Shown here in pieces: positions 2,156 to 29,949 of a DNA stretch of 60,294 bases. Numbering within the stretch: position 1 is the stretch's first letter; each line of letters opens with the position of its first letter. Position numbers and translations under genes: made by a program. The notes beneath the pieces were generated by a model. It saw only the letters and a program-made list of their open reading frames with translations, made no database searches and was not told where the DNA came from. The stretch spans positions 1 to 60,294 of the forward strand of contig NZ_JBGUAZ010000012.1 in assembly GCF_041821085.1 (NCBI RefSeq), given 5' to 3'. The DNA comes from Natrinema sp. HArc-T2. GTDB lineage: Archaea > Halobacteriota > Halobacteria > Halobacteriales > Natrialbaceae.

Positions 2156-5074
2156 TCAAAGGGGTAGCGTGAGACAGTAGTTCTCTACCTCGGGTGCAAG
2201 GGAGATAATCTGCTCCCGACGCCGGAGTTCTTCGCGACGCGTTTCGATTCTGTCCTCGAGCTGTTCAAGACGCTCCTGTTGGCCACGGATCGCGATGTCC
2301 ATATCTGAGCCGGCATCGGCTTTGCGCTCGTACTCCTCGATGAAGGACTCGATCCGTTCTCGTTCAGCCTGTGCGTATTCCTCGAGATTCTCCAGCTCCC
2401 GAGCGGTCTCCTCGTGACGCTTCTCCTGAAGATGGTTCTTGATCTCGTTGACCCGCACGCTCACATAGCGATCGGCAGCCGTCCGTAAGTCGGCTTGCAC
2501 GTCGAGTACCGTCTGAAGGTCGTCGACATCGGGCTTTGCTGTTATGGAGTCGCCCTCGACAACACGTTCACCAAGCGCCTGCTGGGCGTCCTCTTGCGCA
2601 GCATCCACGAAGACCGGGATGGTTTCCTCGCGAATCACATCGCCGGTGCCGTCCTCGAACGCGACGCGATAGTTGTAGGTGATCCCCGGCGTGTCGACGA
2701 ACGGAAGCAGTTTGAGTCCGACTTCGCCGCGCTCGTCCTCCAACACGCGTGCCATGAGCCGTTGCAGGACATCTGTGCCGGGAGCGAGGTAGGTGATGTC
2801 CTCGTGATCCATCGCGAAGTCGCGGTCGAACGTGAACGGGCCGAACGTCGCATCTTGGCCGGGCGAATTGATTCCGTCTGGCAATTCGGCTTGATAGAGG
2901 TTGGTGCTGCGCTTCTCGAATTCGCCTCCGAAGGCGCCGACTGCTTGCTCGAAGAACTCGCGGATATCTCTCTCACTTCCGTAGACGTCCTCCGACTCAT
3001 CGACGACTTCCTGAATCTGCCGGCGGCTCTCCGCGTCGAACGTGCTCGTATCGACCAGGCTCCGCTCGTACCACTCCTCGAGCGTCCGCTGACGCTCCTC
3101 GATCATCTCCTCGAGTTCCTCTTTGGTCGCACTCGGTGGTTCGTCGTTCTCGATGGACTCCATGATGAGCGAGTCTACGTCGATGTCATCGAGGATGCCG
3201 AGTACGTCCGCCGTGTTCCCGAGCTGGGAGCGAATCTCTTCGACCTTGGTTTGGAGCATCTCGAAGATCTCGCTCTCGCGGGTATCGTCGAAGAGGAAGT
3301 TCCAGACCTTGACTTCCTCCTCCTGTCCGTAGCGGTGAATGCGTCCGATCCGCTGCTCGAGCCGGTTCGGGTTCCACGGAAGCTCGTAGTTGGCCATAAT
3401 GTGGCAGCTGTGCTGGAGGTCAATCCCCTCGCTCGCTGCGTCGGTCGCGAACAGGAGTCGCGACTGGCCGTGATTGAACTCATCTTCGATCCGCGCCCGT
3501 TCATCCTTGTCCACGTCGCCGTGAATCACGAGAATCTCGTCGGCCCACGGCTCGTCCTGCACGAACTCGAGGAGGTAGTCGAGCGTATCTCGGTACTCAG
3601 TGAATAACAGAAGTTTCTCGTCCGGTTGTTCCTCGAGGAGTTGGGAGATGAACCGTCTGACCTTCTGGGCCTTGGAGTCGACCGGCAAATCCTCCGCCAG
3701 CGAGACGAGGTCGCGGAGTGTGTCGATCTCCTCTTGGAGCTGTTCGTCGGTGCTGGTGACGGTCAGGCCAGCGATCTCGTCTTCCGCGTGTTGCTTGTCG
3801 TCCTCGTCTAAATCCTCACCATCGAGGTAGGCTCGTGCTTCCTCGGAAAGACCATCCGTTTCCGCCTCTTCGTCGAGGAGGTCGTCCAGCCGTCGACGGA
3901 GCGTCGCATGAATCGCACCGACGCTACTCACCAGCCGTTTCTGCATGAGGGCCATCGCGAATCCGACCGCAGGCTCGTTCAACTTCTCCGAACGGTTGTA
4001 GACGTTTTTGACGTAATCGGTGACCGCCCGGTAGAACTGCCGCTCATCGTGCGTCATCGAGACCGATACCGAGTTGACCTCTCGGTCTGGGAAGACGCGT
4101 TCACCATCCTCGTTGTAGATGTCCGTCTTCCCCCGACGGATCATCACGCGGTTGACTGTTTCCTGTGAGAGATCACGGTTCTCGGCGACGAGGAAGGGGT
4201 CGATGTACTCGACGAGTGAGCGGAACGCCTCACCCTTCCCGTCATGTGGCGTCGCGCTGAGAAGCAGCAACGAGTCGGAGTTCCCCGTGACGGTATCGAC
4301 CGTCTTTGCCGTCTTGCTCGGCGAGTCACCTCGCTTGGCGGCCTTGTGTGCCTCGTCGACCACGACGACGTCCCAGAACGCGTCCCGAAGCGCAGGCCGG
4401 AACTCGTCCTGTCGCAGAAACGCCATACTGGTGACGAGCTGTTGTTGGTCTTGGTTCCAGATGTTGGCCTCCTCGCCAAGTCGCCGACGCTCACCTTCGA
4501 CCCACGCCCGGTCTGCGACGGTGAGATCAACGTCGAAGAAACGATCCATATCCCGGATCCACTTCTTCTGCAGGTGTGCAGGAACGACGAACAGGACGCG
4601 GTCGGCGCGATTCCGGGCGGCGAGTTCTTTGAGGATGAGTCCCGCCTCTATCGTTTTCCCGAGCCCGACATCGTCTCCGATGAGCGCCCGCTGACGGAGT
4701 TTCTGCATTACCCAGTTCACGGCGTCGAGTTGGTAGGGCTCCAGTCGAACAAGCGAGTTCGAGATGCTCAAGAGTTGTCCCTGTTCGTGGGCGAGTTTGA
4801 GTTTCGTCGCTTGCGTGTGGAGATCGAACCACTGCGCGGAGACCGAATTGTGATCAGGATGGAGGGAGTCAATTTGCTGATCGGGAATTCTCTCAAGGCC
4901 ACTCTGAGCAGGTTTGACGTCGATGTCGTCGAGACAGACCGTCTTGACACCCTCTCCTTCGAGATACGCTCGAAGGTATTCGATGTCACCCACAGTCCGA
5001 GTCCGAATAACCTCCGCAGGAGTACCGTTGAGAATCACCCGCTGGCCGGGAGAAAATTGTGGAGATCCCGTCAT
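2156..5074 (-). CDS. brxHII: BREX type 5 SNF2-family helicase BrxHII
   Basis: This 972-residue superfamily 2 ATPase has Walker A GDDVGLGKT at residues 133-141, DEAH at 240-243, the SNF2-type LLSATPHDGKGEAFRSLVEY, and motif VI RIGRIHRYGQ near 571-581. Charged coiled coils lie between the lobes and at the C-terminus. The family is HepA/COG0553, the helicase that marks type 5 BREX in haloarchaea, where no Lon-like protease is present. It is the last minus-strand gene of the system and is separated from pglZ by an oppositely oriented nuclease gene. DrmD of DISARM is similar, but the neighbours here are BREX genes. It probably translocates on DNA during phage restriction. Confidence 0.85.
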   Translation of the reverse strand: MTGSPQFSPGQRVILNGTPAEVIRTRTVGDIEYLRAYLEGEGVKTVCLDDIDVKPAQSGLERIPDQQIDSLHPDHNSVSAQWFDLHTQATKLKLAHEQGQLLSISNSLVRLEPYQLDAVNWVMQKLRQRALIGDDVGLGKTIEAGLILKELAARNRADRVLFVVPAHLQKKWIRDMDRFFDVDLTVADRAWVEGERRRLGEEANIWNQDQQQLVTSMAFLRQDEFRPALRDAFWDVVVVDEAHKAAKRGDSPSKTAKTVDTVTGNSDSLLLLSATPHDGKGEAFRSLVEYIDPFLVAENRDLSQETVNRVMIRRGKTDIYNEDGERVFPDREVNSVSVSMTHDERQFYRAVTDYVKNVYNRSEKLNEPAVGFAMALMQKRLVSSVGAIHATLRRRLDDLLDEEAETDGLSEEARAYLDGEDLDEDDKQHAEDEIAGLTVTSTDEQLQEEIDTLRDLVSLAEDLPVDSKAQKVRRFISQLLEEQPDEKLLLFTEYRDTLDYLLEFVQDEPWADEILVIHGDVDKDERARIEDEFNHGQSRLLFATDAASEGIDLQHSCHIMANYELPWNPNRLEQRIGRIHRYGQEEEVKVWNFLFDDTRESEIFEMLQTKVEEIRSQLGNTADVLGILDDIDVDSLIMESIENDEPPSATKEELEEMIEERQRTLEEWYERSLVDTSTFDAESRRQIQEVVDESEDVYGSERDIREFFEQAVGAFGGEFEKRSTNLYQAELPDGINSPGQDATFGPFTFDRDFAMDHEDITYLAPGTDVLQRLMARVLEDERGEVGLKLLPFVDTPGITYNYRVAFEDGTGDVIREETIPVFVDAAQEDAQQALGERVVEGDSITAKPDVDDLQTVLDVQADLRTAADRYVSVRVNEIKNHLQEKRHEETARELENLEEYAQAERERIESFIEEYERKADAGSDMDIAIRGQQERLEQLEDRIETRREELRRREQIISLAPEVENYCLTLPL

Positions 5075-6531: not shown

Positions 6532-8724
6532 TTAGCCTTGTGTGATGCTGATGAAGTCGAGGACGAACTCTTGTGGCAAGAGTCCACCGTGATAGAACCG
6601 TGCGTCACCGAGCCCCTGCTTTTTGAACCGCTTGAGTGGGTTCGCAAGGACGCTGACGTTGGCGTCGAGATACCCCAGCCGGGTACTGGAGTCGAGTAGC
6701 ACGCCGGGAGAGTCCTCGTCCACATCCTCACCGGCAATCCATCGCCGGCCGGAGTCGGACGTTTCCATCGGCCGCGAAATCTTCTCCGGCGACGCATTGT
6801 CCGGGAGCAGGACGAACCCGTGATCAGTCAGCACGTAGGCCTGATCCCACTCTCCCTGTTCGAGTTTCGTGCCGATGAACTCTGCGAGCGAGTCGACGCG
6901 TCGGGCGAGCATCGCCTCGAGGTCGCTGAGTTCCTTCTCACCGATGTCGTCGATGTCGTTCTTGAAGTAGGCGACACGCGTCGACTGCCAGCCGTCGTCC
7001 TCTTCGCGAGTGACTGTCCAGCCGTCGCCGTTCAACAGCGACTCGCGGCGGTTGGTCGTCACGCGACGGTTGTTTCGGAGGGGCTGTAACTCGCCATCGA
7101 CCAGCGAGACATCGAACATCTGGATCTCTCCCGGTGTGAGCGCAGCCTTCCCGAACTCAGTCTCCGAGGGAAGCGTTCCGAGCCAGACGTCTTCATCGAC
7201 GGCGAACTCGGGTGCGTCGGTCGGGAGCGTCGCCACGTAGTCGCGCAACTCGTCCGCGAGTCGGCGGGCAAGATCGAGTCGGAGCGCGTCGATGACGAAC
7301 AGTGCGACCGTCTGACCGCTCTCGAGACCTGCCGACTCCTTGGTGAAGAACTGGTAAGAGTGATCCTCGTCGACGAACGGAGCGCCAGCCTCGACGGTTT
7401 CGGTGACGAGATCGCCGAGGTCTTCGAGATACTCGATGTATTCCGACTGGAGCCGTGTGCGGAGATCGTCGAGCGCAGCGGTCGCGGGGTGATCGTCGGG
7501 AAGGTTGGACTCGGGTTCGCCGGCGACGACGAGGTTGAGTACCGCGTTGTCGATCTGCCACGTGCCGTCGTCCGGATCGGCGTACAACGAAACGACATCG
7601 TCGGTGGCGCTCTCGTCCCACGTTTCGAGCTGGTGCGCGAGTCGAGCGATGTCCGCGGCCTGTTCCCACGTTCGCGTCCACGGGCTGTCCGGGCCGTAGG
7701 CTCCTCGGTAGGTGCCGCGAAAGTCCTCGCTCCCGAGGAGGGCGTCATACCGCTCCTCGGCGCGCGTGAGGCACTCTTCGTAGTTGCCAGCATCGAAGGA
7801 TGCGTTCCACTCCTCCCAGAGACGACGTTCGAGCGCACCGTCGACGATACAGTCTGCGAGTTCCCATGGGTCGTCGACATCCGCGATCACGTCGGGCCAT
7901 ATCGCCTCGCCGAGGTAGCGGTCGGCGAGAAGGTCAGACGAGGTGGTGTTGTTCAACAGTGACTTGAGTTCGGGGAGGTCGTGAGCGCCGGCCGTTTCGG
8001 CTCGGAACTCGATTGGGAAGCGTTCGGCGTCGGCGCCAGCGTGGATCAGCCACTCGGCGACGGCCCACCGATGCGTCGCCGCGACGATCCCCACTGGTTC
8101 GTCTTCGTTGGCGACGGCGTTGACGCCCTCGCTGGTGAGCAAGTCCTGCATCTGCTCGATAGTGTTGGGTCTGTCGTTGATGTCACCCCAGCCGTTCTCC
8201 AGCACGAACGCGACCGGGTCAGTGTAGCCGCCAGTGACGATCTGCGTGCGGAGCTGTTCAAGCGTCGGGAGCTGTCCGCCAGTGAGTTGGTCGTGGAGAA
8301 TCCGTACGATCTCACGGCGCTTTTCGGGATCATCCGCCTGTGTTGCGGTTTTCAGCTCCCACGCATCGAGTTGCCCACGCCCAAACGCGTGGACGGTGAG
8401 GTCTTCGATGCTCATCTCCACCTCGCCGCCTGTGTGTTCGATGTCGCGGAACCAGTCGTAGTCTCCCTCGGCGTCTTCGGGTTCCTTGACGTGCGGGACG
8501 TACCAGACCTGTTCGCCGCCGACTGGATCGGCACGGAGTTCCAGCGGCGTTTCCTCAGCGACCTTCAAGTGAACGCCGAGTTCGTCGCAGGCCTGCTCGA
8601 TGATGTCCTCGAGGTAGTTCCCGTCGTCCCACCAGAGAACGATCGGGTCGGACGACTCGGCGCGGTCGAACTCGCTTCGGATTGTGTCTTTCGCGGCGTC
8701 GGGGAGGGTCTGCTTCGCTTGCAT
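6532..8724 (-). CDS. pglZ: BREX phosphatase-like protein PglZ
   Basis: The protein has 730 residues. The C-terminal half carries the alkaline-phosphatase-superfamily PglZ core: VIDALRLDLARRLADELR near residues 474-490 and YVLTDHGFVLLP near 630-642, likely metal-binding parts. The N-terminal half is the helical PglZ extension starting with DPIVLWWDDGNYLEDII. PglZ is required in every BREX type, though its substrate is still unclear. It starts three bases after the pglX stop, so the two genes are probably cotranscribed. The length is normal and no break is seen. Confidence 0.92.
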   Translation of the reverse strand: MQAKQTLPDAAKDTIRSEFDRAESSDPIVLWWDDGNYLEDIIEQACDELGVHLKVAEETPLELRADPVGGEQVWYVPHVKEPEDAEGDYDWFRDIEHTGGEVEMSIEDLTVHAFGRGQLDAWELKTATQADDPEKRREIVRILHDQLTGGQLPTLEQLRTQIVTGGYTDPVAFVLENGWGDINDRPNTIEQMQDLLTSEGVNAVANEDEPVGIVAATHRWAVAEWLIHAGADAERFPIEFRAETAGAHDLPELKSLLNNTTSSDLLADRYLGEAIWPDVIADVDDPWELADCIVDGALERRLWEEWNASFDAGNYEECLTRAEERYDALLGSEDFRGTYRGAYGPDSPWTRTWEQAADIARLAHQLETWDESATDDVVSLYADPDDGTWQIDNAVLNLVVAGEPESNLPDDHPATAALDDLRTRLQSEYIEYLEDLGDLVTETVEAGAPFVDEDHSYQFFTKESAGLESGQTVALFVIDALRLDLARRLADELRDYVATLPTDAPEFAVDEDVWLGTLPSETEFGKAALTPGEIQMFDVSLVDGELQPLRNNRRVTTNRRESLLNGDGWTVTREEDDGWQSTRVAYFKNDIDDIGEKELSDLEAMLARRVDSLAEFIGTKLEQGEWDQAYVLTDHGFVLLPDNASPEKISRPMETSDSGRRWIAGEDVDEDSPGVLLDSSTRLGYLDANVSVLANPLKRFKKQGLGDARFYHGGLLPQEFVLDFISITQG

Positions 8725-13190: not shown

Positions 13191-13760
13191 ATGGGGCGCA
13201 TTCCGAGCTGGGCAAAGATCGTCCTGTTCCTGAGCTCCTATAGCCCGCTCTTCGCTATCGTCGCTCTCCGCGCCCACGATTCGACCCACTCGGTTTTCGG
13301 GTACCAACTGGAGCCCGTCGGAATCGGGCCTGTTGAGTTATCCTATCTTTCGCTCAGTTTCTCGGTTCTCACCGTAATTAGCGTCGTCTTCTTGGCTCTG
13401 ATGATACGGATGAACCGCACGAGACAGGGCCAGTTGAGCGAAATCGAGCACTACCGAAATCGGTCAGATATGTTCACAGAGTACCTCTTGGTCTACATCT
13501 TCCCGTTCATCGTGTTTGAGTTCTCGAATATATACGATGTAGCGGCGTTTCTCGTGCTATTTATCACGGTCGCTGCGATCGTGATCCGCTCTAACCGGTT
13601 GTTCGTCAATCCGGTTCTGATCGGCTTCCGTTACCGCGTCTACGAAATCGAAACTGAGCACGACAGACGAATCCTCCTCACCAAGCAGGAACTCGATGGG
13701 AATGATATGACACTCAATACAGCAAGAATAAGTAGTGATGTCTATATCACCACAAGATAA
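13191..13760 (+). CDS. kwaA: Kiwa-like membrane protein KwaA
   Basis: This 189-residue protein has four predicted membrane helices at about residues 8-27, 50-73, 95-112 and 114-133, then a soluble tail of ~55 residues. Size, helix number and the partner downstream match KwaA, the membrane sensor of the Kiwa anti-phage system. Its TAA shares a base with the kwaB start (TAATG), so the two are translationally coupled. It lies on the plus strand inside the minus-strand BREX cluster. Sequence alone cannot prove homology for a small membrane protein, so the name depends on kwaB and the overlap. Confidence 0.65.
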   Translation: MGRIPSWAKIVLFLSSYSPLFAIVALRAHDSTHSVFGYQLEPVGIGPVELSYLSLSFSVLTVISVVFLALMIRMNRTRQGQLSEIEHYRNRSDMFTEYLLVYIFPFIVFEFSNIYDVAAFLVLFITVAAIVIRSNRLFVNPVLIGFRYRVYEIETEHDRRILLTKQELDGNDMTLNTARISSDVYITTR

Positions 13761-14770
13761 TGAGTTCAGCGAGCCGGGGTGACGCTCGAAACCACTTCGA
13801 CGAACTGGTCGCATTCCTCCAGCGGATCGAGGACATCGATACCAGCGAACTTGGGATCGACCTACTGCTGGCTCGTCTGGACGGGGAAAGCGCCGAAGAC
13901 TATGACTACACCTTTGACCGCATCTCGCTAGATCAAGAACTCCCCGAGGATCTGGAGAATCTGGTGCGCGAGAAGGTCGAACACAAGCAATCTGTGCTCG
14001 AAAGCGACAAGATTCGGTTTTCGGATTACGGCATCGAAAACCGAGATCGCGACCAGACTTTCGTTCAGTATGAACCCACGGAGAACATCCCTCAGTTCGA
14101 TAACTTCGAACGCCTGCTGGAGGGACAGCGGTTTAGTCACACGACATATACGGAGCCGCCGAAACCCGAATTCCAAGCGATCCGTATTCGAGATGCCGAC
14201 AACGACCAGATGGCGATTGCCTTTCTAAACTACAGTCGGCGCCAGATTATGGGTCGAACGTCTCGTACTCGTATGCTGGTCGGAAGCGAGAAACACAGGA
14301 AGGTGGATGACTCGCTAATCTCGATCCCCGACCGCGTGGATTCTATCTACTACGATGGGATGATGTACATTTTCGACCAGTCCCGGTTCGAGAAGGTATT
14401 CGATTATCTCGCAGAATATGAGCGGTGCGCAGACGACGTCTTAGACCGGATCGAGGAGACGGATATTCCGTTCCACGACTTTGATATGTTCAAGGATGCG
14501 GTTTACGGGAACAACCGTGTGCTGAGACTGATGTACAAGGTACATGAACGCGGCGTGTACGAGGATATGGATTTAGACGACGCGACGTATATCCGCGACA
14601 ACTTCGATACTGACGTGAAGTTCGAGGAGAACGGTGACGGAGAGATGTCCATCAAGATGGACGACAAGCGAGATGTTTGGGCTGTTCTCCGCTTCTTCAA
14701 CGACGATCACCTCGACTCGCCGCTTACGAATGAGCAGTATATCTCGCTCTCAAAGCAAGATGCTGGATAG
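13760..14770 (+). CDS. kwaB: Kiwa-like effector KwaB (DUF4868-like)
   Basis: This 336-residue soluble protein is coupled to the four-helix gene upstream by a TAATG overlap. It has DUF4868/KwaB hallmarks: central strands around FQAIRIRDADNDQMAIAFLN, then SIYYDGMMYIFDQSRFEKVF, and a helical C-terminal half. In described Kiwa systems KwaB binds DNA and works with KwaA at the membrane to stop phage transcription or replication. No catalytic motif is evident. The gene is convergent with the nuclease gene that ends two bases away. The assignment comes from recalled family features and should be confirmed by profile search. Confidence 0.65.
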   Translation: MSSASRGDARNHFDELVAFLQRIEDIDTSELGIDLLLARLDGESAEDYDYTFDRISLDQELPEDLENLVREKVEHKQSVLESDKIRFSDYGIENRDRDQTFVQYEPTENIPQFDNFERLLEGQRFSHTTYTEPPKPEFQAIRIRDADNDQMAIAFLNYSRRQIMGRTSRTRMLVGSEKHRKVDDSLISIPDRVDSIYYDGMMYIFDQSRFEKVFDYLAEYERCADDVLDRIEETDIPFHDFDMFKDAVYGNNRVLRLMYKVHERGVYEDMDLDDATYIRDNFDTDVKFEENGDGEMSIKMDDKRDVWAVLRFFNDDHLDSPLTNEQYISLSKQDAG

Positions 14771-14772
14771 GC

Positions 14773-15816
14773 TCACCCAGTAGTCTCGCCGAGTATCTCC
14801 CGAGTCTGAGATTCAAGCGCGTCGAAATCGACCTCCTGATTCGGGTTACAGGTAATTCTCACCCCCCTCCGACCATTTCCTCGCATATCGTCTTTCACCT
14901 CAACTGACTCAACATCAATTTCGAGTGCATCCGCAATCTTTCCAGCATCTAACGAAACAGTATCAACGTCGTATAGTTCGATGTGGAACTGTGTCCGTTG
15001 CGTCCAGATCGAAATACGACGCTTTCGGCCCTTGTTGAAAGCAACGTAGAGCTTTTGCCCCCACTCCGGCCCATTCAGGGACTCCAGTTCCTGCAGCGCA
15101 GCTATGACATCTTTCAGCAGATCCGCTGTCTGTTCGTTGGAACGCTCGTTGAGGTGCCAACTCTGTCCGTCCTCTTTCCATGGCTCGTCAGAGGTATCAG
15201 GACTTACGTCCGTTACCGTGTGTTCCGGTATCGGGATCGTTTGCTCTGCATCGAGATACAGCCGGTCGCCGTCCTTGAGGAGCTGAAACTCGATGACTGA
15301 GATGTCGATCGACCTGTCGCTGAGCCACCGGAGCACGATGTCTAGCCGCTCGCGGACGGATTCCCCGACAAAAACGATCCGCTGATCCTGATTGAGCGTG
15401 TAGTCCTCGTTGCAGAACTCGTCGAGTACCTCGGTAAACGTGGTTTCCTCCTCGTAGAGCGTCTTCCCCCACGTCGTGGACTTGAATTTCTCGAACTGGT
15501 CGCGGAGCTTGGAGTAATCCCAGTGCGAAGTGTAGGCGGCGTACTTGAGCCCCTGAAAATCGACTTTTGGCTTCAACGCGCCTCGCTTGAGTTCGATGGC
15601 GACGACGTTGGCGTCTCGGTCGATAGCGAGGAGATCGATGCCATCGCCAATCTGCTTCACGGAGACCTCCCGACCGATGAGCCGAAAGTCCTCTCCAAGG
15701 ATGCTTTCGGGGCTGTTGATGATCCACTCTCGGAGGTCGTCCTCACGAAAACCCTCATCCTTCAGGGAGACCGTCTCTAATGTGGAAACGTTTTCTTCAT
15801 CTCCAACTCTAAGCAT
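14773..15816 (-). CDS. NucS/RecB-like PD-(D/E)XK nuclease
   Basis: This 347-residue protein starts with a helical region (LREWIINSPESILGEDF), then GIDLLAIDRD and VVAIELKRG, giving D61 and E75-x-K77, the restriction-fold active site seen in NucS-like (DUF91) nucleases. FQGLKYAAYTS fits the following helix. The C-terminal ~130 residues form a separate domain with KGRKRRISIWTQRTQFHIEL, perhaps for nucleic acid or partner binding. It is convergent with kwaB, with almost no gap, and divergent from the next gene over 175 bp. It may act with Kiwa or BREX as an effector; this is inference from position. Confidence 0.7.
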   Translation of the reverse strand: MLRVGDEENVSTLETVSLKDEGFREDDLREWIINSPESILGEDFRLIGREVSVKQIGDGIDLLAIDRDANVVAIELKRGALKPKVDFQGLKYAAYTSHWDYSKLRDQFEKFKSTTWGKTLYEEETTFTEVLDEFCNEDYTLNQDQRIVFVGESVRERLDIVLRWLSDRSIDISVIEFQLLKDGDRLYLDAEQTIPIPEHTVTDVSPDTSDEPWKEDGQSWHLNERSNEQTADLLKDVIAALQELESLNGPEWGQKLYVAFNKGRKRRISIWTQRTQFHIELYDVDTVSLDAGKIADALEIDVESVEVKDDMRGNGRRGVRITCNPNQEVDFDALESQTREILGETTG

Positions 15817-24300: not shown

Positions 24301-25076
24301 CGATCGCTCCGTAACTGTTCGAGACGCTCGACCATCGCTTCAGGGTCGAGATCTGACGGCGTCAAGTCGTCCAAACCGTCCTCCGTGCCGGTCTCCTGCT
24401 CGAAGAGTGTGGGAAGAACGGCGTCGGCAAGAGCGTTGTACTGCTGAACGTCCGTCCAGTCGTACTTCTCGGGGCTGTCAACCGTACTCCGCAGTGCCGT
24501 TTGGGTGTTGGCAGTTCGGTCATCCCACGCGTCGGTCGTCCGGTACCAGTCCTCGAAGAATGCGACGTCGAGTTGCGACGAGAGCCCTCCCTCGGTGCCG
24601 GTGAGCCGTTCCGACGTGTGAGCGCTTCGGAGAACGATCTCGCTGAAGCTCAGCTTCTTCTGGCCCTGATGCTTCAGGAGGTTCACCGAAATCGGGATAA
24701 CCTCGTATTCGTCGTGGATCGATGACCACGTGGACTCGAGCGCCTCCAACTCACGACCGTCGGTCAGCTGCTCCCAGACATCGTCTCGCTGTCGGAGCCA
24801 TTCGCTATCCAGAAGCCCGCGAAGCACGCTGAGGAGGTGGCTCTTCCCGCTCCCATAGTATCCGTAGAGCCAGTAGTTCGCACCCGACCGCATATCCTCG
24901 GAACGACCGAGTAGACGTGAAAAGAAGTCGGATATGAAGTCCTTGGACTCCTCGGTCACGTGGTAGGTGTCGATCGATTCCAGCCGGTGATCGCGACCGT
25001 CATCCTCGCGGTCGATGCGGACGGACTCCTCGAAATCACTCCCGACATCGGCAGCGAACCAGTCTTCGTCTGTCAT
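21393..25076 (-). CDS. brxC: BREX P-loop ATPase BrxC
   Basis: The protein has about 1227 residues with Walker A GYYGSGKSHLLSVL near residues 69-82 and Walker B-like LVLLLDEVSLFIGTD, then extended helical regions. The start at 25076 is chosen because this ATG overlaps the brxA TGA (ATGA), as at the other joints of the operon; five upstream codons are open but overlap brxA further. BrxC is an essential AAA-like ATPase of BREX. It is clearly paralogous to the gene at 16976-20818 in size and motif layout. Confidence 0.9.
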   Translation of the reverse strand: MTDEDWFAADVGSDFEESVRIDREDDGRDHRLESIDTYHVTEESKDFISDFFSRLLGRSEDMRSGANYWLYGYYGSGKSHLLSVLRGLLDSEWLRQRDDVWEQLTDGRELEALESTWSSIHDEYEVIPISVNLLKHQGQKKLSFSEIVLRSAHTSERLTGTEGGLSSQLDVAFFEDWYRTTDAWDDRTANTQTALRSTVDSPEKYDWTDVQQYNALADAVLPTLFEQETGTEDGLDDLTPSDLDPEAMVERLEQLRSDREDELGRPVKLVLLLDEVSLFIGTDFDRLTELQTLAESVDETGDGDIQLVATAQAKIEDVQPQFAARGADFSIVKDRFPHRFGLPSRHVGEISTQRLLKKTEAGRADTERVLERTSNEPETLLVYSGIEQNTEPPLDDIDRERLIEFYPFLPYQPPLFLEILSNLRQEAHDPAKSIFSGTARAILALVHGLLQEWIEAGDETHVISLVDFYDLIEPELDDITPQDVAVIDEIEEQHEVGELEEIDVDVAKAVLLLQHIPNTIPMSERNLAVAVLSDLDGPTQFQMENRVEDSLGRLRKYIRPTHDETGPKYAFTHPEEREIIEASEQNLDNPDWQSIIEAVDRNLWEDIVRDLSLPTSAEYGDTGEQYPVRYEFSIDGIDLDTTVDAEDALDVEVAVEGISSTAADTDYDGDLLEWTIGQDGLDDLQDSLIEWWSLRDAVGDHTLPQSVERDLSDRAARVQSKLVEALKSGTFDVKDRGDQIGGMVSGVEEYLDVNYPDDFHPVMLQVSDEHLQELRGLSAQDPLPSWAQQIDVATEDPETHGGSIQNNVRAFTGQQLKQRGGNLAMATLLDGITKKKPIYEDARPALCAIIWGLCRKGDFLPVDETGDSLELDIVIDLNKLTTTRLKIAGNGGVRGILREGGFIDSTETIPDGIVRLQSANDTLAGRLGSLVEDVRLVAETDIQTRAVRNLLESFVEELEAEQQSATDRREAVKSRDTDWEDVVEATNDAQEWYDDAGEVWSLRLPALTQIDAQLTLAQQSYDWLTEECETASQTLRESIDGYEGEWWTHDGWDRFNDAQTASPALDDAIETAWDSFQEETDVDVFVDELQEHSWIQPASEFGSNVRPAFESKYITPLHRAASWYEDVSNAVSTVTGGTTNAKADDFIRATNALLDSEPLAVVAGSDVEELRDTFEELRTLVGDQSPTDITAIGVLPSDRESLDSELERLVERHDLSIERTEMGVIIR

Positions 25077-25840
25077 ACTTCGCCCTCCCACGGTTCCGCC
25101 CAGTCGTATGTGTCATCGACCGGCTGGAGCCTCAGTTCACCGTGAATCCCGCTTGCTTCCCAGTTCGGATCGTCGCTCACACGTTCGGCTAAGGAGTCCC
25201 AGTACTGTTCCGGCTGGAAGAGACAGAGCCAGCCGATCGGCTGAGACAGCCAGTCATCGCCGTGGGTCTTCCACGAGTATCCTGACGCAATAAGTAGTGG
25301 AGTCGTTCCGAGATTGGGGATTTGTCCTTGAAGGGCCTGTTGTGTGTCGATAACGCCGATCTTTCGCATCACCGATCGGAGCCCTTCACCCCATCGACGC
25401 GTCGTGGATTCTGCATAGTCAAACTCACTCCCGTCGTCGTAGTGGAACTCGTTCAGGAGGCGCTCGACAGTATCCTGCTCGAAATCCAGTCCATCGACAC
25501 CGGACTCCTGAAGCCGGTCGACGTACCGGTGGACAGCGTACTTCACAAGGGGGTCGTCCTCCAGTAAATAGAAGTACAACACCTGCGCTTTGTCGCGCAC
25601 CGTCTCACATTGGTCTAGTACGGAGGGCAGTTGGACAATAGACGGAAGCTCGCTACCAGTGGTCTTGAACCGGGAACTGAGAGCGCGGTAGATTCCCTTT
25701 GAACTCCCACGTGTACTTCGCTCATCGAATCGTTCTTCGATCCACTTCTCTTCGACGACCGTCCAGTCCCGATGTTGGGCGTACAGCCGAGCGAGCGTCT
25801 CTGCTCTATCCACGAGAAGCCCGCATCTAGTGAGAGTCAT
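25073..25840 (-). CDS. brxA: BREX protein BrxA
   Basis: This is a DUF1819/BrxA family protein of 255 residues: CGLLVDRAETLARLYAQH, then a helical DNA-binding-like region with QLPSVLDQCETVRDKAQVLY and RRWGEGLRSVMRKIGVI. The Met at 25840 is preferred over 25915 because GAGGTG, a strong Shine-Dalgarno match, sits about five bases upstream. BrxA is small, binds DNA in characterised systems and is typically the first BREX gene, as here. It leads the coupled block brxA-brxC-brxB-brxC2. Confidence 0.88.
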   Translation of the reverse strand: MTLTRCGLLVDRAETLARLYAQHRDWTVVEEKWIEERFDERSTRGSSKGIYRALSSRFKTTGSELPSIVQLPSVLDQCETVRDKAQVLYFYLLEDDPLVKYAVHRYVDRLQESGVDGLDFEQDTVERLLNEFHYDDGSEFDYAESTTRRWGEGLRSVMRKIGVIDTQQALQGQIPNLGTTPLLIASGYSWKTHGDDWLSQPIGWLCLFQPEQYWDSLAERVSDDPNWEASGIHGELRLQPVDDTYDWAEPWEGEV

Positions 25841-26526
25841 CGACACCTCTTTGTGAGAAAATGTTGAGTCGAGCGACGGTAGGGAAGCACCCCTTCCGTC
25901 GGTGCGGAGAGTCATACTGTATCCCGAACCATCCGCACCACTTAGTTGATATGGATAAACGAATCGGAGAGGTCTGTTATCAGTTGCAGGAAGCTTCTGT
26001 CCTTCGAATTCTTACGGATTTGTCCGACGTTGTGACGAAGCAATTTTGAGTTCTTACCAACACATCTGTAAAAAATGTCTGATACGACTATGAGAAATAT
26101 AAAAGATCTCGGCCCAGACAATCTCGAATCTCATCCGATCCTGGCGTCGACGACGATGGCCGCAAGGATCTCGAGACGCTCTCGGCGGAGATTACGGGGA
26201 GTGTCAAGATTCGTCTCAAACACGAATTTCACTTAGCCCACGAGCAGGTTGTACTGACCGAACTGCTTGGCTTCTGGTTGACGACGAGTTCAGGCTTCAC
26301 ATCACCGGTGGTCTGCGAACCGCCGAGCGGCAGTAACTCGCCCGACGAGTCCTCAAGACTAACTTCGGATTCGACGTTGCAGTGTGTCATAGAATACGAT
26401 CACGCCCTCTACCTGACGATTATACAGCTCTCAATGCGTATGAGCCTGTAGTTTCGCCAGCCACCTATTTATTCAATACATATGCCATGGATAATATTTG
26501 TTGAGAACCATTATATGACACGGTCA
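25841..26526. other. Intergenic stretch with a short coding relic
   Basis: No intact gene is seen. The part near brxA must contain the BREX promoter. From about 26158 to 26340 a plus-strand frame reads as normal haloarchaeal coding sequence (DLETLSAEITGSVKIRLKHE) but has no clear start and soon ends, so it is probably a decayed gene. The parent family is not recognised. The 3' part (26400-26520) is AT-rich and featureless. Confidence 0.4.
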
Positions 26527-27873
26527 CTATATCAGTTGTTGGAACATCTCGTGATCTTCCACGAGTTCAGACTGCGCTGCTGGAGTGTCCGGCTTCGTCG
26601 GTCCGAATGACTCTGGTGAAACGGCCTGTTGCATCGCCTCGAGTTGTGATTGGAGTTGGCCGCTCGTCGATCGAATGAGTTCGTCGTCGGGCCACGAGTG
26701 GACCTCCAGCCCGTCGAATCGCCGCGCAACTTGCTGGACTGTGTTGAGCTGTTCGAGTGCGTATTCGACCCAGTATTGCCGATCGTCACGCATCCGTCGA
26801 AGTTCCCTCTCGACATCCTCGTAGCCGGCGTCGGAAGCCGCCTTGAGACATTGTTGGAAGTTCTTTCCACGAGGATTGATCGGCTCGTGGAAAACAACGA
26901 TTTCACCCAGCGCTCGGAAGTAACTCAGCAACTCGTGAAAGTCGTCTTCATCCATCGTCGGGTATGTGGGTGACATTGAAACGAATACTGGAACATCAGC
27001 TTGCTGAAGACGATCGAGTGCCTCCCATCGTTTTATTGGCGGTGGTGCGTTCGGTTCGACCGCGTTAACCAGCGGAGCCTCGAACGAGGGAATCGATGAG
27101 CCGACCGTGATGCGGTTGCCGGCTTCTCGAAAGAGATCGATATCGCGAACAACTGCTGGGCTACGCGTGAGGATTCGGACTGGGATATCATGCATAATGA
27201 GTTCAGTGACCGCCCCGCGAGTGATCTGGGCGGCACGGCGGTCCTGGTAGCAGTCGGTCCCGCTCGAGAGCATAACAACACCACGGCCGCGGTTGGTTTG
27301 TTTTCGGTCACTTGGAACCCGGTCCTCAAGAACGCGGCCCAGTCGTTCTGGGAGGTCGTCACGGTACAGCAGGTAATTGCCCCAGTCTGACTGTGGGTCG
27401 CCAACGTCGGCTTGGTCAGCGAGCATTTCGTCGCGATTGTCGATCGCTGGCGTGGTTGGGACATAACAGAATTCACAACCGTGCCGGCAGCCGGTCGCGA
27501 CGTTGATGACGTGGTCACAGAGGCTCTTAGTGTGGAGATGCGATTCGCTCACCACCGATTTCGTTGGATCGGTATTAACACGGATTCCGTTTCGATCTGT
27601 GCTTTCGGTATTCATCGCACAGTCCCAGCAAAGGATGTCACTGTCTGGATTGGCAGCGAAGCGGTCGTTAATCTCACTGTTGCAGTCGGTACAGAGGAGT
27701 CCTGCTTGCCACAAGTCTAATCGATCGGTCGGACCGCCGTACTTACGTTCGATTTTACGGAGCTCGTCAAGCGTTGGCTGGCTTCCGAGCGTCTCGAGTG
27801 TTTGACCGTTCGATCGTTCGACGGTGTATGTTCGCTCAAACCAGCTACCACCTGTTTCCCAAGTGAGCTCCAT
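26527..27873 (-). CDS. Radical SAM protein with N-terminal zinc-finger extension
   Basis: This 448-residue protein has a CxxxCxxC cluster motif at C129, C133 and C136 (CRHGCEFCYVP), the site of a 4Fe-4S cluster in radical SAM enzymes. LSSGTDCYQDRRAAQITRG and IGSSIPSFEAPLVNAVEPNA resemble the spore-photoproduct-lyase-like (SplB) branch. An extra N-terminal domain has two CxxC pairs (C61/C64, C82/C85) that probably bind zinc. The Met at 27873 is preferred to 27957 because the domain starts there. It is paralogous to, and divergent from, the gene at 28012. The substrate is unknown; a nucleic-acid role is suggested by the branch and the neighbours. Confidence 0.78.
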   Translation of the reverse strand: MELTWETGGSWFERTYTVERSNGQTLETLGSQPTLDELRKIERKYGGPTDRLDLWQAGLLCTDCNSEINDRFAANPDSDILCWDCAMNTESTDRNGIRVNTDPTKSVVSESHLHTKSLCDHVINVATGCRHGCEFCYVPTTPAIDNRDEMLADQADVGDPQSDWGNYLLYRDDLPERLGRVLEDRVPSDRKQTNRGRGVVMLSSGTDCYQDRRAAQITRGAVTELIMHDIPVRILTRSPAVVRDIDLFREAGNRITVGSSIPSFEAPLVNAVEPNAPPPIKRWEALDRLQQADVPVFVSMSPTYPTMDEDDFHELLSYFRALGEIVVFHEPINPRGKNFQQCLKAASDAGYEDVERELRRMRDDRQYWVEYALEQLNTVQQVARRFDGLEVHSWPDDELIRSTSGQLQSQLEAMQQAVSPESFGPTKPDTPAAQSELVEDHEMFQQLI

Positions 27874-28011
27874 AGAGTTTGCCTCGGTTCTATCTTCTAA
27901 CTGTAACCCAAAAGAGGTCAGCCTAGTGTAGTGAAAGTAAAAGGATAGAGTAACCAATAGTGACTAGCAAGAATTTTGTGAGTGGGCCGATAGTATTTAG
28001 ATACTAGAATA
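27874..28011. promoter_or_regulatory. Divergent promoter of the two radical SAM genes
   Basis: This AT-rich 138-bp gap lies between two paralogous genes read outward. GTATTTAGATACT at about 27989 is an imperfect palindrome that could be a regulatory or TATA element for the plus-strand gene, whose ATG follows about 12 bases later. Confidence 0.4.
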
Positions 28012-29061
28012 ATGTCTGAGGATTACGGTAGAGTACGAACTGGAGACGACCCGACGAAGGCGATCCTCAGTGAATCCGGACTCAATAGCAAGCATCTCTG
28101 TGATTACGTTGTCAACGTTGCTACCGGTTGTCGCCACGGATGCAAATTCTGTTACGTCCCGTCAACACCGAACATCCGTACCCGTCCAGATATGCTTGAA
28201 GAGGAACTCGGAGTAGAGAACGGGCAGGAGGAGTGGGGAGATTACGTCCTTTACCGCGACGGACTGGGTGAGCGGCTTGATGCGCACCTAGATCGTAAAC
28301 GAAAGTGGCGAAAAACGAGACGCGGACGTGGTGTCGTCGGTGTTTCCTTTTCTACGGATTGCTATATGGATGGTCGTGCAGGAAAAATCACACGCAACGT
28401 TGTTCGATCACTTACGGATCGTGAGAAATATACGCGTGTTTTGACACGGAATCCCATTCTTGCGCTTCAGGACTTGGATGTATTCATAGAAGGGGGAGAA
28501 TATGTCACGATCGGCTCATCGATTCCCTGTATGGATGCCGATCAGGTTGGAGCCATCGAACCAAAGGCACCAGTACCAGAACATCGGCTTCGCGGGCTCA
28601 AGGAATTCAACGAGAACGGAGTCCAGACGTTCGTGAGTATGAGCCCAACCTACCCAACACAGGACAAAGACGACCTTCGCGATCAACTTGAGCGCGTGTC
28701 AGAGTGTGATCCTGCCGTTGTCTTCCATGAACCGATCAATCCTCGTGGTGGAAACTTCGAGATGACCGTGCAAGCTGCCCGAGATGCAGGTGAAGATGAA
28801 CTGGCACAAGAGTTGGACCGACTTCGCGATCGTGAGCGGTGGGTTGAGTACGCGACTAACCATCTTCAATGGGTTCAGGAGATCGGTGAAGAGTTAGGAT
28901 TGCCGATACACCTGTGGCCAGACAAGCAACTCATCAAGTATGCTTCTGATGAAGAACAAGTATGGTTGCAATCATGGCGAGATCGTCAGTCACCAGAGGA
29001 ATTCGCAGAAAGGGACAAACCAGATTCACCTGCGCCAAATATTCCCTGTACAGAGGTTTAA
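28012..29061 (+). CDS. Radical SAM protein, short paralogue
   Basis: This 349-residue enzyme shares the core of the divergent neighbour: TKAILSES, NVATGCRHGCKFCYVP (C40, C44, C47), STDCYMDGRAGKITRN, IGSSIPCMDADQVGAIEPKA, VSMSPTYPTQD and FHEPINPRGGNF. It lacks the zinc-finger extension. Two paralogues back to back suggest either a heteromeric enzyme or two substrates. It is convergent with a TcmP-like gene nine bases beyond its stop. TcmP proteins are named as partners of three-Cys-motif (CxxxCxxC) proteins, which fits. The reaction is unknown. Confidence 0.8.
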   Translation: MSEDYGRVRTGDDPTKAILSESGLNSKHLCDYVVNVATGCRHGCKFCYVPSTPNIRTRPDMLEEELGVENGQEEWGDYVLYRDGLGERLDAHLDRKRKWRKTRRGRGVVGVSFSTDCYMDGRAGKITRNVVRSLTDREKYTRVLTRNPILALQDLDVFIEGGEYVTIGSSIPCMDADQVGAIEPKAPVPEHRLRGLKEFNENGVQTFVSMSPTYPTQDKDDLRDQLERVSECDPAVVFHEPINPRGGNFEMTVQAARDAGEDELAQELDRLRDRERWVEYATNHLQWVQEIGEELGLPIHLWPDKQLIKYASDEEQVWLQSWRDRQSPEEFAERDKPDSPAPNIPCTEV

Positions 29062-29070
29062 TGACATGTA

Positions 29071-29949
29071 CTAAATAAAATCGCCTAAGCCAGACTGACC
29101 AAGTTCGTCTTGAGCTTTTTCCCAGAGAGTATCTTGATTCATGATTGACTCCATTGCACTACGGGCTCCGTCATTTGTGCAGGCAAAGACCAAATCAAAT
29201 CTGCATCGTCGGTCATCAGGAGATTCAAGTCCTTTTGTTAAAACAGGCTGAATGTCTCCATTCTCTTCCAGCTTTTCTCTGTATATTTGGACATACTCCT
29301 CTCTTGAACCTGCCTCTGGCCAATCGTCATCACCCATTGTACGTCTCACCGCACCGTGAGCGTGTTCAGCTGCAGCACTCCTCATTACACCCGTTGTTTG
29401 ATAGTTCAGTAGAATATCTACGTTCCCTCTATCTAATAAGGTGTCTAAAGTTGACTTTTTAGCTGTCAAACCTTTAGGATCAATAAATGAAAACCAATGT
29501 GAATTACTATTGGCATTGTTTGCTAAAAAGCTCACCCCCTGATTAGAATCCATCTGCATTATCCTGATATACGGGTCGTCACATCGGGCGACTAAGAAAT
29601 CCTCGCCATCTGTCTCTACCGGCCCCACATCAAATTGTATATCGAATGTATCTGATAGTGTCCTGTGTAGTGTGTGGAAATGTTCTTCATTCAATTCGTA
29701 TAGGTAAAATCTATCAAAAAACTCTGAATAGTCATCAATGGCCCGGATTGCCGATCCGTCGATATTGATACCCTTATCATCAATATGGGTTTTTCCTGTG
29801 CCCGAATGTGTGTCTACATACCATAAATCGCCCCATTCCCAATTGGAATCAAGAATCGTTGTATATACATCTAAATACTCTTCTAAAATCACCAGTTTGG
29901 CCGCTGTTTTGAGATCCCCTCCCGAGAAGTGGTCTGACATATTGGACAA
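29071..29949 (-). CDS. tcmP: Three-Cys-motif partner protein (TcmP-like)
   Basis: The protein has 292 residues (an in-frame Met at 29940 gives MSDHFSGGD). The N-terminal pattern KLVILEEYLDVY...LWYVDTHSGTG, then GSAIRAI, LYELNEEHF and SFIDPKGL, resembles the TcmP family, which looks like a Rossmann methyltransferase-type fold with a glycine-rich loop. The family is found next to proteins with a three-cysteine radical SAM-like motif, here the two genes upstream. Base composition is AT-richer than the neighbours, a sign of transfer. Its role is not established; substrate binding or modification together with the radical SAM enzymes is inferred. Confidence 0.65.
   Translation of the reverse strand: MSNMSDHFSGGDLKTAAKLVILEEYLDVYTTILDSNWEWGDLWYVDTHSGTGKTHIDDKGINIDGSAIRAIDDYSEFFDRFYLYELNEEHFHTLHRTLSDTFDIQFDVGPVETDGEDFLVARCDDPYIRIMQMDSNQGVSFLANNANSNSHWFSFIDPKGLTAKKSTLDTLLDRGNVDILLNYQTTGVMRSAAAEHAHGAVRRTMGDDDWPEAGSREEYVQIYREKLEENGDIQPVLTKGLESPDDRRCRFDLVFACTNDGARSAMESIMNQDTLWEKAQDELGQSGLGDFI

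Follow-up and report, generated by a model that had tools for sequence, protein, structure and literature searches.

The window analyzed here, one entire contig of 60,294 bases from the genome of the haloarchaeon Natrinema sp. HArc-T2, carries a three-gene module in which TcmP, a protein predicted to be methyltransferase-like, lies beside two radical S-adenosylmethionine (SAM) enzymes that resemble spore photoproduct lyase (SPL), here termed rSAM-L and rSAM-S. In our haloarchaeal sample, the SPL-like enzyme fully replaces DUF5131, the bacterial partner of TcmP. We favor, with moderate confidence, the reading that this is a self-contained, horizontally moving TcmP–radical SAM module that protects haloarchaea from viruses or from other DNA that invades them. 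As bacterial pairs of TcmP and DUF5131 are already listed in PADLOC as candidates PDC-M41 and PDC-M30, the haloarchaeal module belongs, as a variant, to a kind of defense candidate that is known; what is new here is the replacement by an SPL-like partner, a TcmP model of the RlmJ type with a predicted catalytic Lys/Asp pair, a putative clamp tag (a PCNA-interacting protein box, or PIP box), and the exchange of TcmP.

The features of the module and of its neighbor in the window are as follows.

26527 to 27957, minus strand: rSAM-L, an SPL-like radical SAM protein with an N-terminal CxxC...CxxC domain (open reading frame, profile and model evidence)
27466 to 27489, minus strand: [4Fe-4S] radical SAM motif CRHGCEFC of rSAM-L
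27619 to 27693, minus strand: putative zinc-binding knuckles CTDC...CWDC of rSAM-L (the match to Pfam zf_Tbcl_Rhp7 is weak)
27874 to 28011: divergent intergenic (promoter) region between rSAM-L and rSAM-S, 138 bp, if rSAM-L starts at the ATG at 27873
28012 to 29061, plus strand: rSAM-S, an SPL-like radical SAM protein of 349 amino acids without the zinc-type domain
28129 to 28152, plus strand: [4Fe-4S] radical SAM motif CRHGCKFC of rSAM-S
29071 to 29949, minus strand: TcmP (TIGR04474), with a predicted RlmJ-like class I methyltransferase fold
29794 to 29820, minus strand: motif I of TcmP, YVDTHSGTG (SAM-binding loop)
29896 to 29898, minus strand: Lys18 of TcmP, putative counterpart of the catalytic K18 of RlmJ, invariant in 73 TcmPs
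29479 to 29481, minus strand: Asp157 of TcmP, within FIDPKG, putative counterpart of D164 of RlmJ, likewise invariant in the 73 TcmPs
29074 to 29097, minus strand: PIP-box-like C-terminal tail of TcmP, QSGLGDFI (disordered and of low confidence in the model)
2156 to 25915: bacteriophage exclusion (BREX) locus, a neighbor outside the module, with BrxHII, PglZ, PglX, two BrxC and BrxB, a KwaB gene inside and a candidate BrxA at 25073 to 25915

The three open reading frames that a first-pass annotation of this DNA had placed here were all found at these coordinates. As that annotation had noted, the two radical SAM proteins share the motif CRHGCxFCYVP (CRHGCEFCYVP in rSAM-L and CRHGCKFCYVP in rSAM-S). 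The likelier starts, conserved among relatives, are the ATG at 27873 for rSAM-L (448 amino acids) and the ATG at 29940 for TcmP (289 amino acids). With the former start, the radical SAM genes indeed read outward from one region, the 138-bp gap, and the rSAM-S and TcmP genes are convergent with 9 bp between them. The extra zinc-type domain that had been assigned to one of the enzymes corresponds to the CTDC...CWDC pair at residues 89–113 of rSAM-L. The third protein, proposed to be TcmP with a glycine-rich loop, scores 94.9 bits against TIGR04474 (cut-off 53), and the loop is motif I; the lack of a TcmP match, which the annotation had named as one outcome that would refute its proposal, is thus not the case.

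The linkage of these genes was assessed in 391 haloarchaeal genomes. TcmP, as recognized by TIGR04474, occurs in 24 of them, always as a single copy above the cut-off, and one or more SPL-like radical SAM genes adjoin it in all 24, which bears out the conserved linkage for which a co-occurrence check had been suggested. Full-length radical SAM homologues are present in 29 genomes, five of which have no TcmP (in one of these five the homologue lies on a 12-kb contig), and the co-occurrence gives a Fisher p of ~1e-33, the species not being independent. DUF5131 was detected in 11 of the 391 genomes and in none of the 24 TcmP carriers, implying that the SPL-like enzyme took over the partner's place in this sample. 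No other constant neighbor was found within ~9 kb of the haloarchaeal modules. Two radical SAM genes are present in most modules (some, L054, L055 and L061, have one), and in several the CxxC domain is on both; as a guess, the two copies might form a heterodimer. The distribution of the module is patchy, and many copies are plasmid-borne.

Some genomes carry additional pieces of rSAM-L. Two extra copies of its 3' end were seen in Haloarcula sebkhae (locus L066; positions 1277–1401, 3624–3823 and 7233–8615), and both start at gene nucleotide 1184–1186, as if a cassette had been exchanged repeatedly at one point. In locus L080 and in others from its genus, multiple C-terminal halves of rSAM-L stand alone, as open frames of ~150–230 amino acids without CxxxCxxC. 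Such halves occur in several genomes and are either relics or a separate protein.

rSAM-L and rSAM-S share 49% identity, and both pass the cut-off of the radical SAM family PF04055 (47.5 and 36 bits; cut-off 29.5). The three cysteines of CxxxCxxC are invariant. The nearest sequence families of both proteins are PA0069, Rv2578c and the mobile-pair-B family TIGR04470 (E 1e-11 to 1e-25), but the scores, 45–88 bits, are far under the curated cut-offs of 360–430. In a profile search, the SPL family PF20903 gave 11.5 and 13.8 bits against a cut-off of 27, and TIGR04070 gave no reported match; neither protein matched the PADLOC models, including that of PDC-M41 gene B (DUF5131), and a sequence search of the PDB returned nothing useful. 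Profile comparison with DUF5131 placed the cluster in register, albeit weakly (probability 19%, E 0.0012).

At the level of predicted structure, however, the radical SAM enzymes appear to have the SPL fold. The rSAM-L model, with a predicted local distance difference test score (pLDDT) of 82.5, matched SPL with Z values of 17.6–18.1 over 269–284 residues, the next family scoring 14.5. Identity in this strongest match is 14–16%, and the module enzymes differ from SPL also in the extra CxxC domain and in the pairing of their genes with TcmP. That they are ordinary SPL homologues, an outcome that the first-pass annotation had named beforehand as speaking against its own proposal, is ruled out by the SPL family cut-offs, which both proteins miss, together with the tight TcmP linkage (24 of 24 genomes).

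We modeled TcmP with AlphaFold from 15 sequences (mean pLDDT 81.5). The closest fold is that of RlmJ, the 23S rRNA A2030 N6-methyltransferase (VIA Z 17, root-mean-square deviation 3.2, 207 residues), followed by Trm1 (15.8) and by others at about 14 or less; Foldseek agrees, and in a viral fold library only general methyltransferases were matched. The sequence profile of TcmP also aligns with that of RlmJ, over motif I and the GS motif (E 0.013). Lys18, Gly50 and Asp157 are invariant in 73 TcmPs, and in RlmJ methyl transfer depends on both K18 and D164 (PMC3814359). Because the structural alignment starts in register (8 to 8), K18 of TcmP presumably takes the position of K18 of RlmJ. Fold and residues together predict that TcmP is an RlmJ-type base amino-methyltransferase. 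Unlike RlmJ, TcmP has no DPPY and no ~40-residue insertion, carries the predicted PIP box, and is not encoded by an rRNA-specific chromosomal gene.

The C-terminus of the window TcmP, QSGLGDFI, fits the PIP-box consensus QxxI/L/MxxF[F/Y], and the FEN1 of the same genome ends in QTGLDRWT. In archaea, this box is located at the very end of the protein, and in halophiles its last residue is relaxed (PMC2737543, PMC3504372). When the strict pattern was required within the last 14 residues, it was present in 19 of 19 intact haloarchaeal window-type TcmPs and in one fragment of a broken gene, versus 3 of 513 other open reading frames of the same neighborhoods and none of 50 bacterial or phage TcmPs, although these counts are not phylogenetically independent. 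A shared C-terminal tail, such as a bacterial sliding-clamp motif, was also sought in the latter 50 proteins and none was found. The tail of the window TcmP, disordered in the model, would tie this protein to PCNA, and this predicted PIP box points to DNA rather than RNA.

In the TcmP tree, the haloarchaeal proteins belong to clades remote from each other, which lie near PDC-M41A and PDC-M30A and are separated by bacterial sequences. When TcmP types are followed along the radical SAM tree, well-supported branches require at least 11 switches and the best tree 15; since the rSAM-S and rSAM-L subtrees were both counted, the independent switches are roughly half as many. With shuffled labels, the number of switches is no higher. 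At the DNA level, the window and locus L069 are 80% identical over 26526–29015, which spans the radical SAM pair, and the similarity ends at TcmP. The same sharp boundary was seen in other locus pairs, and the orientation of TcmP also varies. That TcmP is exchanged while the radical SAM pair stays constant suggests that it determines the target or specificity, being probably the exchangeable, specificity-bearing part.

Outside the haloarchaea, the PADLOC models PDC-M41A and PDC-M30A match TcmP, and PDC-M41B and PDC-M30B match DUF5131 (Gp37/Gp68). The window TcmP matches PDC-M41A (2.9e-14), and the best model for the TcmP of other modules is PDC-M30A. As in our module, TcmP (gene A) of these candidates lies beside a radical-SAM-like three-Cys-motif partner, often convergently, in defense islands and on plasmids; in the module, by contrast, TcmP is partnered by an SPL-like radical SAM protein (usually by two) outside the PADLOC models, and the window-type TcmP has the predicted PIP box. 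TcmP is convergent with Gp37/Gp68 on a Deinococcus plasmid, and the pair with DUF5131 also occurs in Rhodococcus and Acetobacter; it adjoins McrC and an AAA ATPase in Nocardioides, Abi genes in Leisingera, a DEAD/DEAH helicase in Agrobacterium and a NACHT gene in Streptomyces. On a Nostoc plasmid, TcmP is accompanied by an SPL-like radical SAM protein that shares 37% identity with rSAM-S, and a BREX-1 operon adjoins them. Cyanobacteria thus have the SPL-type partner of TcmP as well, again with BREX alongside.

In our literature search we found no paper on PDC-M41, on DUF5131 or on TcmP with radical SAM proteins, and none giving TcmP or DUF5131 a function. Phage defense candidates of PADLOC are called uncharacterized (PMC12482510), which was said of other candidates on the list. 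An expression table for Sinorhizobium lists TcmP (SMa2243) with the defense gene hna (SMa2245) (PMC12445080). In Agrobacterium and Sinorhizobium (loci L109 and L110), two TcmPs of different types flank each other; a DUF5131 gene adjoins them, and a DEAD/DEAH helicase is close by. In Sinorhizobium this helicase region is the Hna region. The first-pass annotation had taken the module for a candidate uncharacterized defense or nucleic acid modification system. This remains our favored reading, except that the system is not new in kind, given the PADLOC entries, and that BREX is a neighbor rather than a constant partner.

Besides the conserved linkage, the predicted folds and the PIP box, the defense reading draws on the setting (BREX and KwaB in the window, BREX-1 on the Nostoc plasmid, and McrBC, Abi, NACHT and helicase genes by bacterial pairs), on the patchy, often plasmid-borne distribution and on the exchange of TcmP. 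Under this reading, the PIP box would bring TcmP to PCNA and hence to DNA under replication. There, the 5'-deoxyadenosyl radical of the radical SAM enzymes would modify a base (at the methyl group of thymine or another C–H), TcmP would bind or methylate the same target, and as an outcome either self DNA would be marked or invader DNA poisoned. This favored mechanism, in which a methyltransferase-like subunit and its radical SAM partners would act on DNA associated with PCNA, is an inference that goes beyond folds and motifs. More specifically, a clamp-tethered methyltransferase-like protein of exchangeable specificity might guide the radical SAM enzymes, whose C–H radical chemistry would modify or poison a base of fresh DNA without cutting it. 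This would be a new class of defense, an idea that we put forward tentatively and consider doubtful.

Several observations weigh against the defense reading. No defense phenotype for the module was found in the literature search. Among the nine haloarchaeal TcmPs of the PDC-M30 type, five have a degenerate PIP-like end (with the Gln replaced) and four have none. The DPP(Y/F) motif IV of N6-adenine methyltransferases is missing, the window TcmP having DPKG and others DPxG or DNxx, so that methyl transfer by TcmP is likely but not assured. The chemistry of SPL need not transfer to the radical SAM enzymes, as the strongest match is one of fold at such low identity. BREX adjoins the module in only one of ~24 haloarchaeal loci and was not found within ~9 kb of the others. 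The flanks of other modules contain type I restriction, Mrr, GmrSD and Cas1 domains, and module flanks matched 233 PADLOC models versus 90 in 20 control loci from these genomes, figures in which members are not countable and which we did not use as proof. As the control loci also held defense genes (CRISPR, Mokosh), an enrichment of defense genes around the modules is suggested rather than shown.

Viral sequences bear on a different explanation, namely that plasmids and islands use the module to shield their own DNA, by anti-restriction or hypermodification, like phage-borne base modification. DUF5131 is frequent in viral contigs (at least 585 loci were found) and TcmP lies within 4 kb of it in 36 of the 80 loci kept; the many plasmid-borne haloarchaeal copies and the lack of a nuclease in the module would also fit. 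However, the haloarchaeal radical SAM family was found in a single viral contig (one locus), a search with the window TcmP matched neither viral contigs nor phages (a TcmP alignment intended as a viral-contig query had no conserved stretch), and the module is repeatedly found in defense islands. We consider this explanation rather unlikely.

The SPL-like features could instead indicate a DNA repair module, in which the lyases reverse a photoproduct or another lesion and TcmP brings them to PCNA; a PIP box is a typical feature of enzymes of repair. As in SPL, the CxxxCxxC motif is followed by a Tyr; this residue (SPL Y98 in Gt, Y99 in Bs) is invariant, and in SPL it belongs to the radical relay (PMC5368176). 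The position of the preceding Tyr of SPL (Y96 in Gt), however, is Phe in the radical SAM proteins here. The invariant Cys30, which precedes the cluster by ten residues, could be the hydrogen donor, to be compared with SPL C141 in Bs, C140 in Gt and the upstream C74 in Clostridium. The alignment with SPL via a bicaudavirus relative covers only the cluster and a C-terminal piece, leaving the loop of SPL Cys141 outside. On a Staphylococcus saprophyticus plasmid (locus L119), a distantly related SPL-like radical SAM gene adjoins genes for a DNA glycosylase, Ada and methylguanine methyltransferase (MGMT), which suggests a DNA-damage role for that branch. Against repair, the module is carried by only 24 of 391 genomes, although haloarchaea generally face strong light; the TcmP type is repeatedly exchanged, Lys18 and Asp157 suggest methyl transfer, and no SPL family model was reached. 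We consider repair improbable. As a separate observation, ORF301 of Acidianus two-tailed virus (locus L114) is a distant radical SAM relative of the window enzymes (28% identity) with a weak SPL-family match (4e-6).

Modification of RNA, with TcmP methylating rRNA or tRNA as RlmJ or Trm1 do and the radical SAM enzymes finishing the modification (compare RlmN and Cfr), would agree with the closest folds and with the rRNA substrate of RlmJ. The PIP box in 19 of 19 intact window-type TcmPs points to DNA instead, and with the patchy distribution and the swapping of TcmP it makes this explanation quite improbable.

The first-pass annotation had placed BREX 700 bp from the module. PADLOC confirms the BrxHII, PglZ, PglX, BrxC and BrxB genes, but the distance is ~610 bp, the last open reading frame on the BREX side ending at 25915. 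That the module is an accessory part of BREX, as this proximity and the complete BREX-1 beside it on the Nostoc plasmid might indicate, is very improbable: it shares no gene with BREX, the other haloarchaeal loci without BREX nearby imply that it is not part of that system, and bacterial pairs adjoin other systems instead.

The BREX loci themselves hold further genes. The KwaB gene of the window (PF16162, 7e-17, above cut-off) lies between PglX and BrxC; it is the second of two open reading frames at 13191–14770, the first of which may be KwaA, so that a Kiwa-like system might be nested in BREX. An open reading frame at 14773–15816 is NucS_C-like, just under the Pfam cut-off, and a 39.5% identical homologue lies directly beside the rSAM-L gene of an uncultured haloarchaeon (L079, 2356–3471). 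On the Nostoc sp. C052 plasmid (L117), the BREX-1 operon by the radical SAM and TcmP genes includes a DarT-like thymidine ADP-ribosyltransferase and an ADP-ribosylglycohydrolase.

Returning to the defense module, both TcmP and DUF5131 are widely distributed among bacteria, plasmids and phages. From the haloarchaeal form, PCNA is predicted as a partner, base methyl transfer together with SPL-like radical chemistry as the type of reaction, and the swapped TcmP as the subunit that sets specificity. If this is true, radical SAM enzymes would serve defense or modification by way of the replication clamp, an unusual arrangement.

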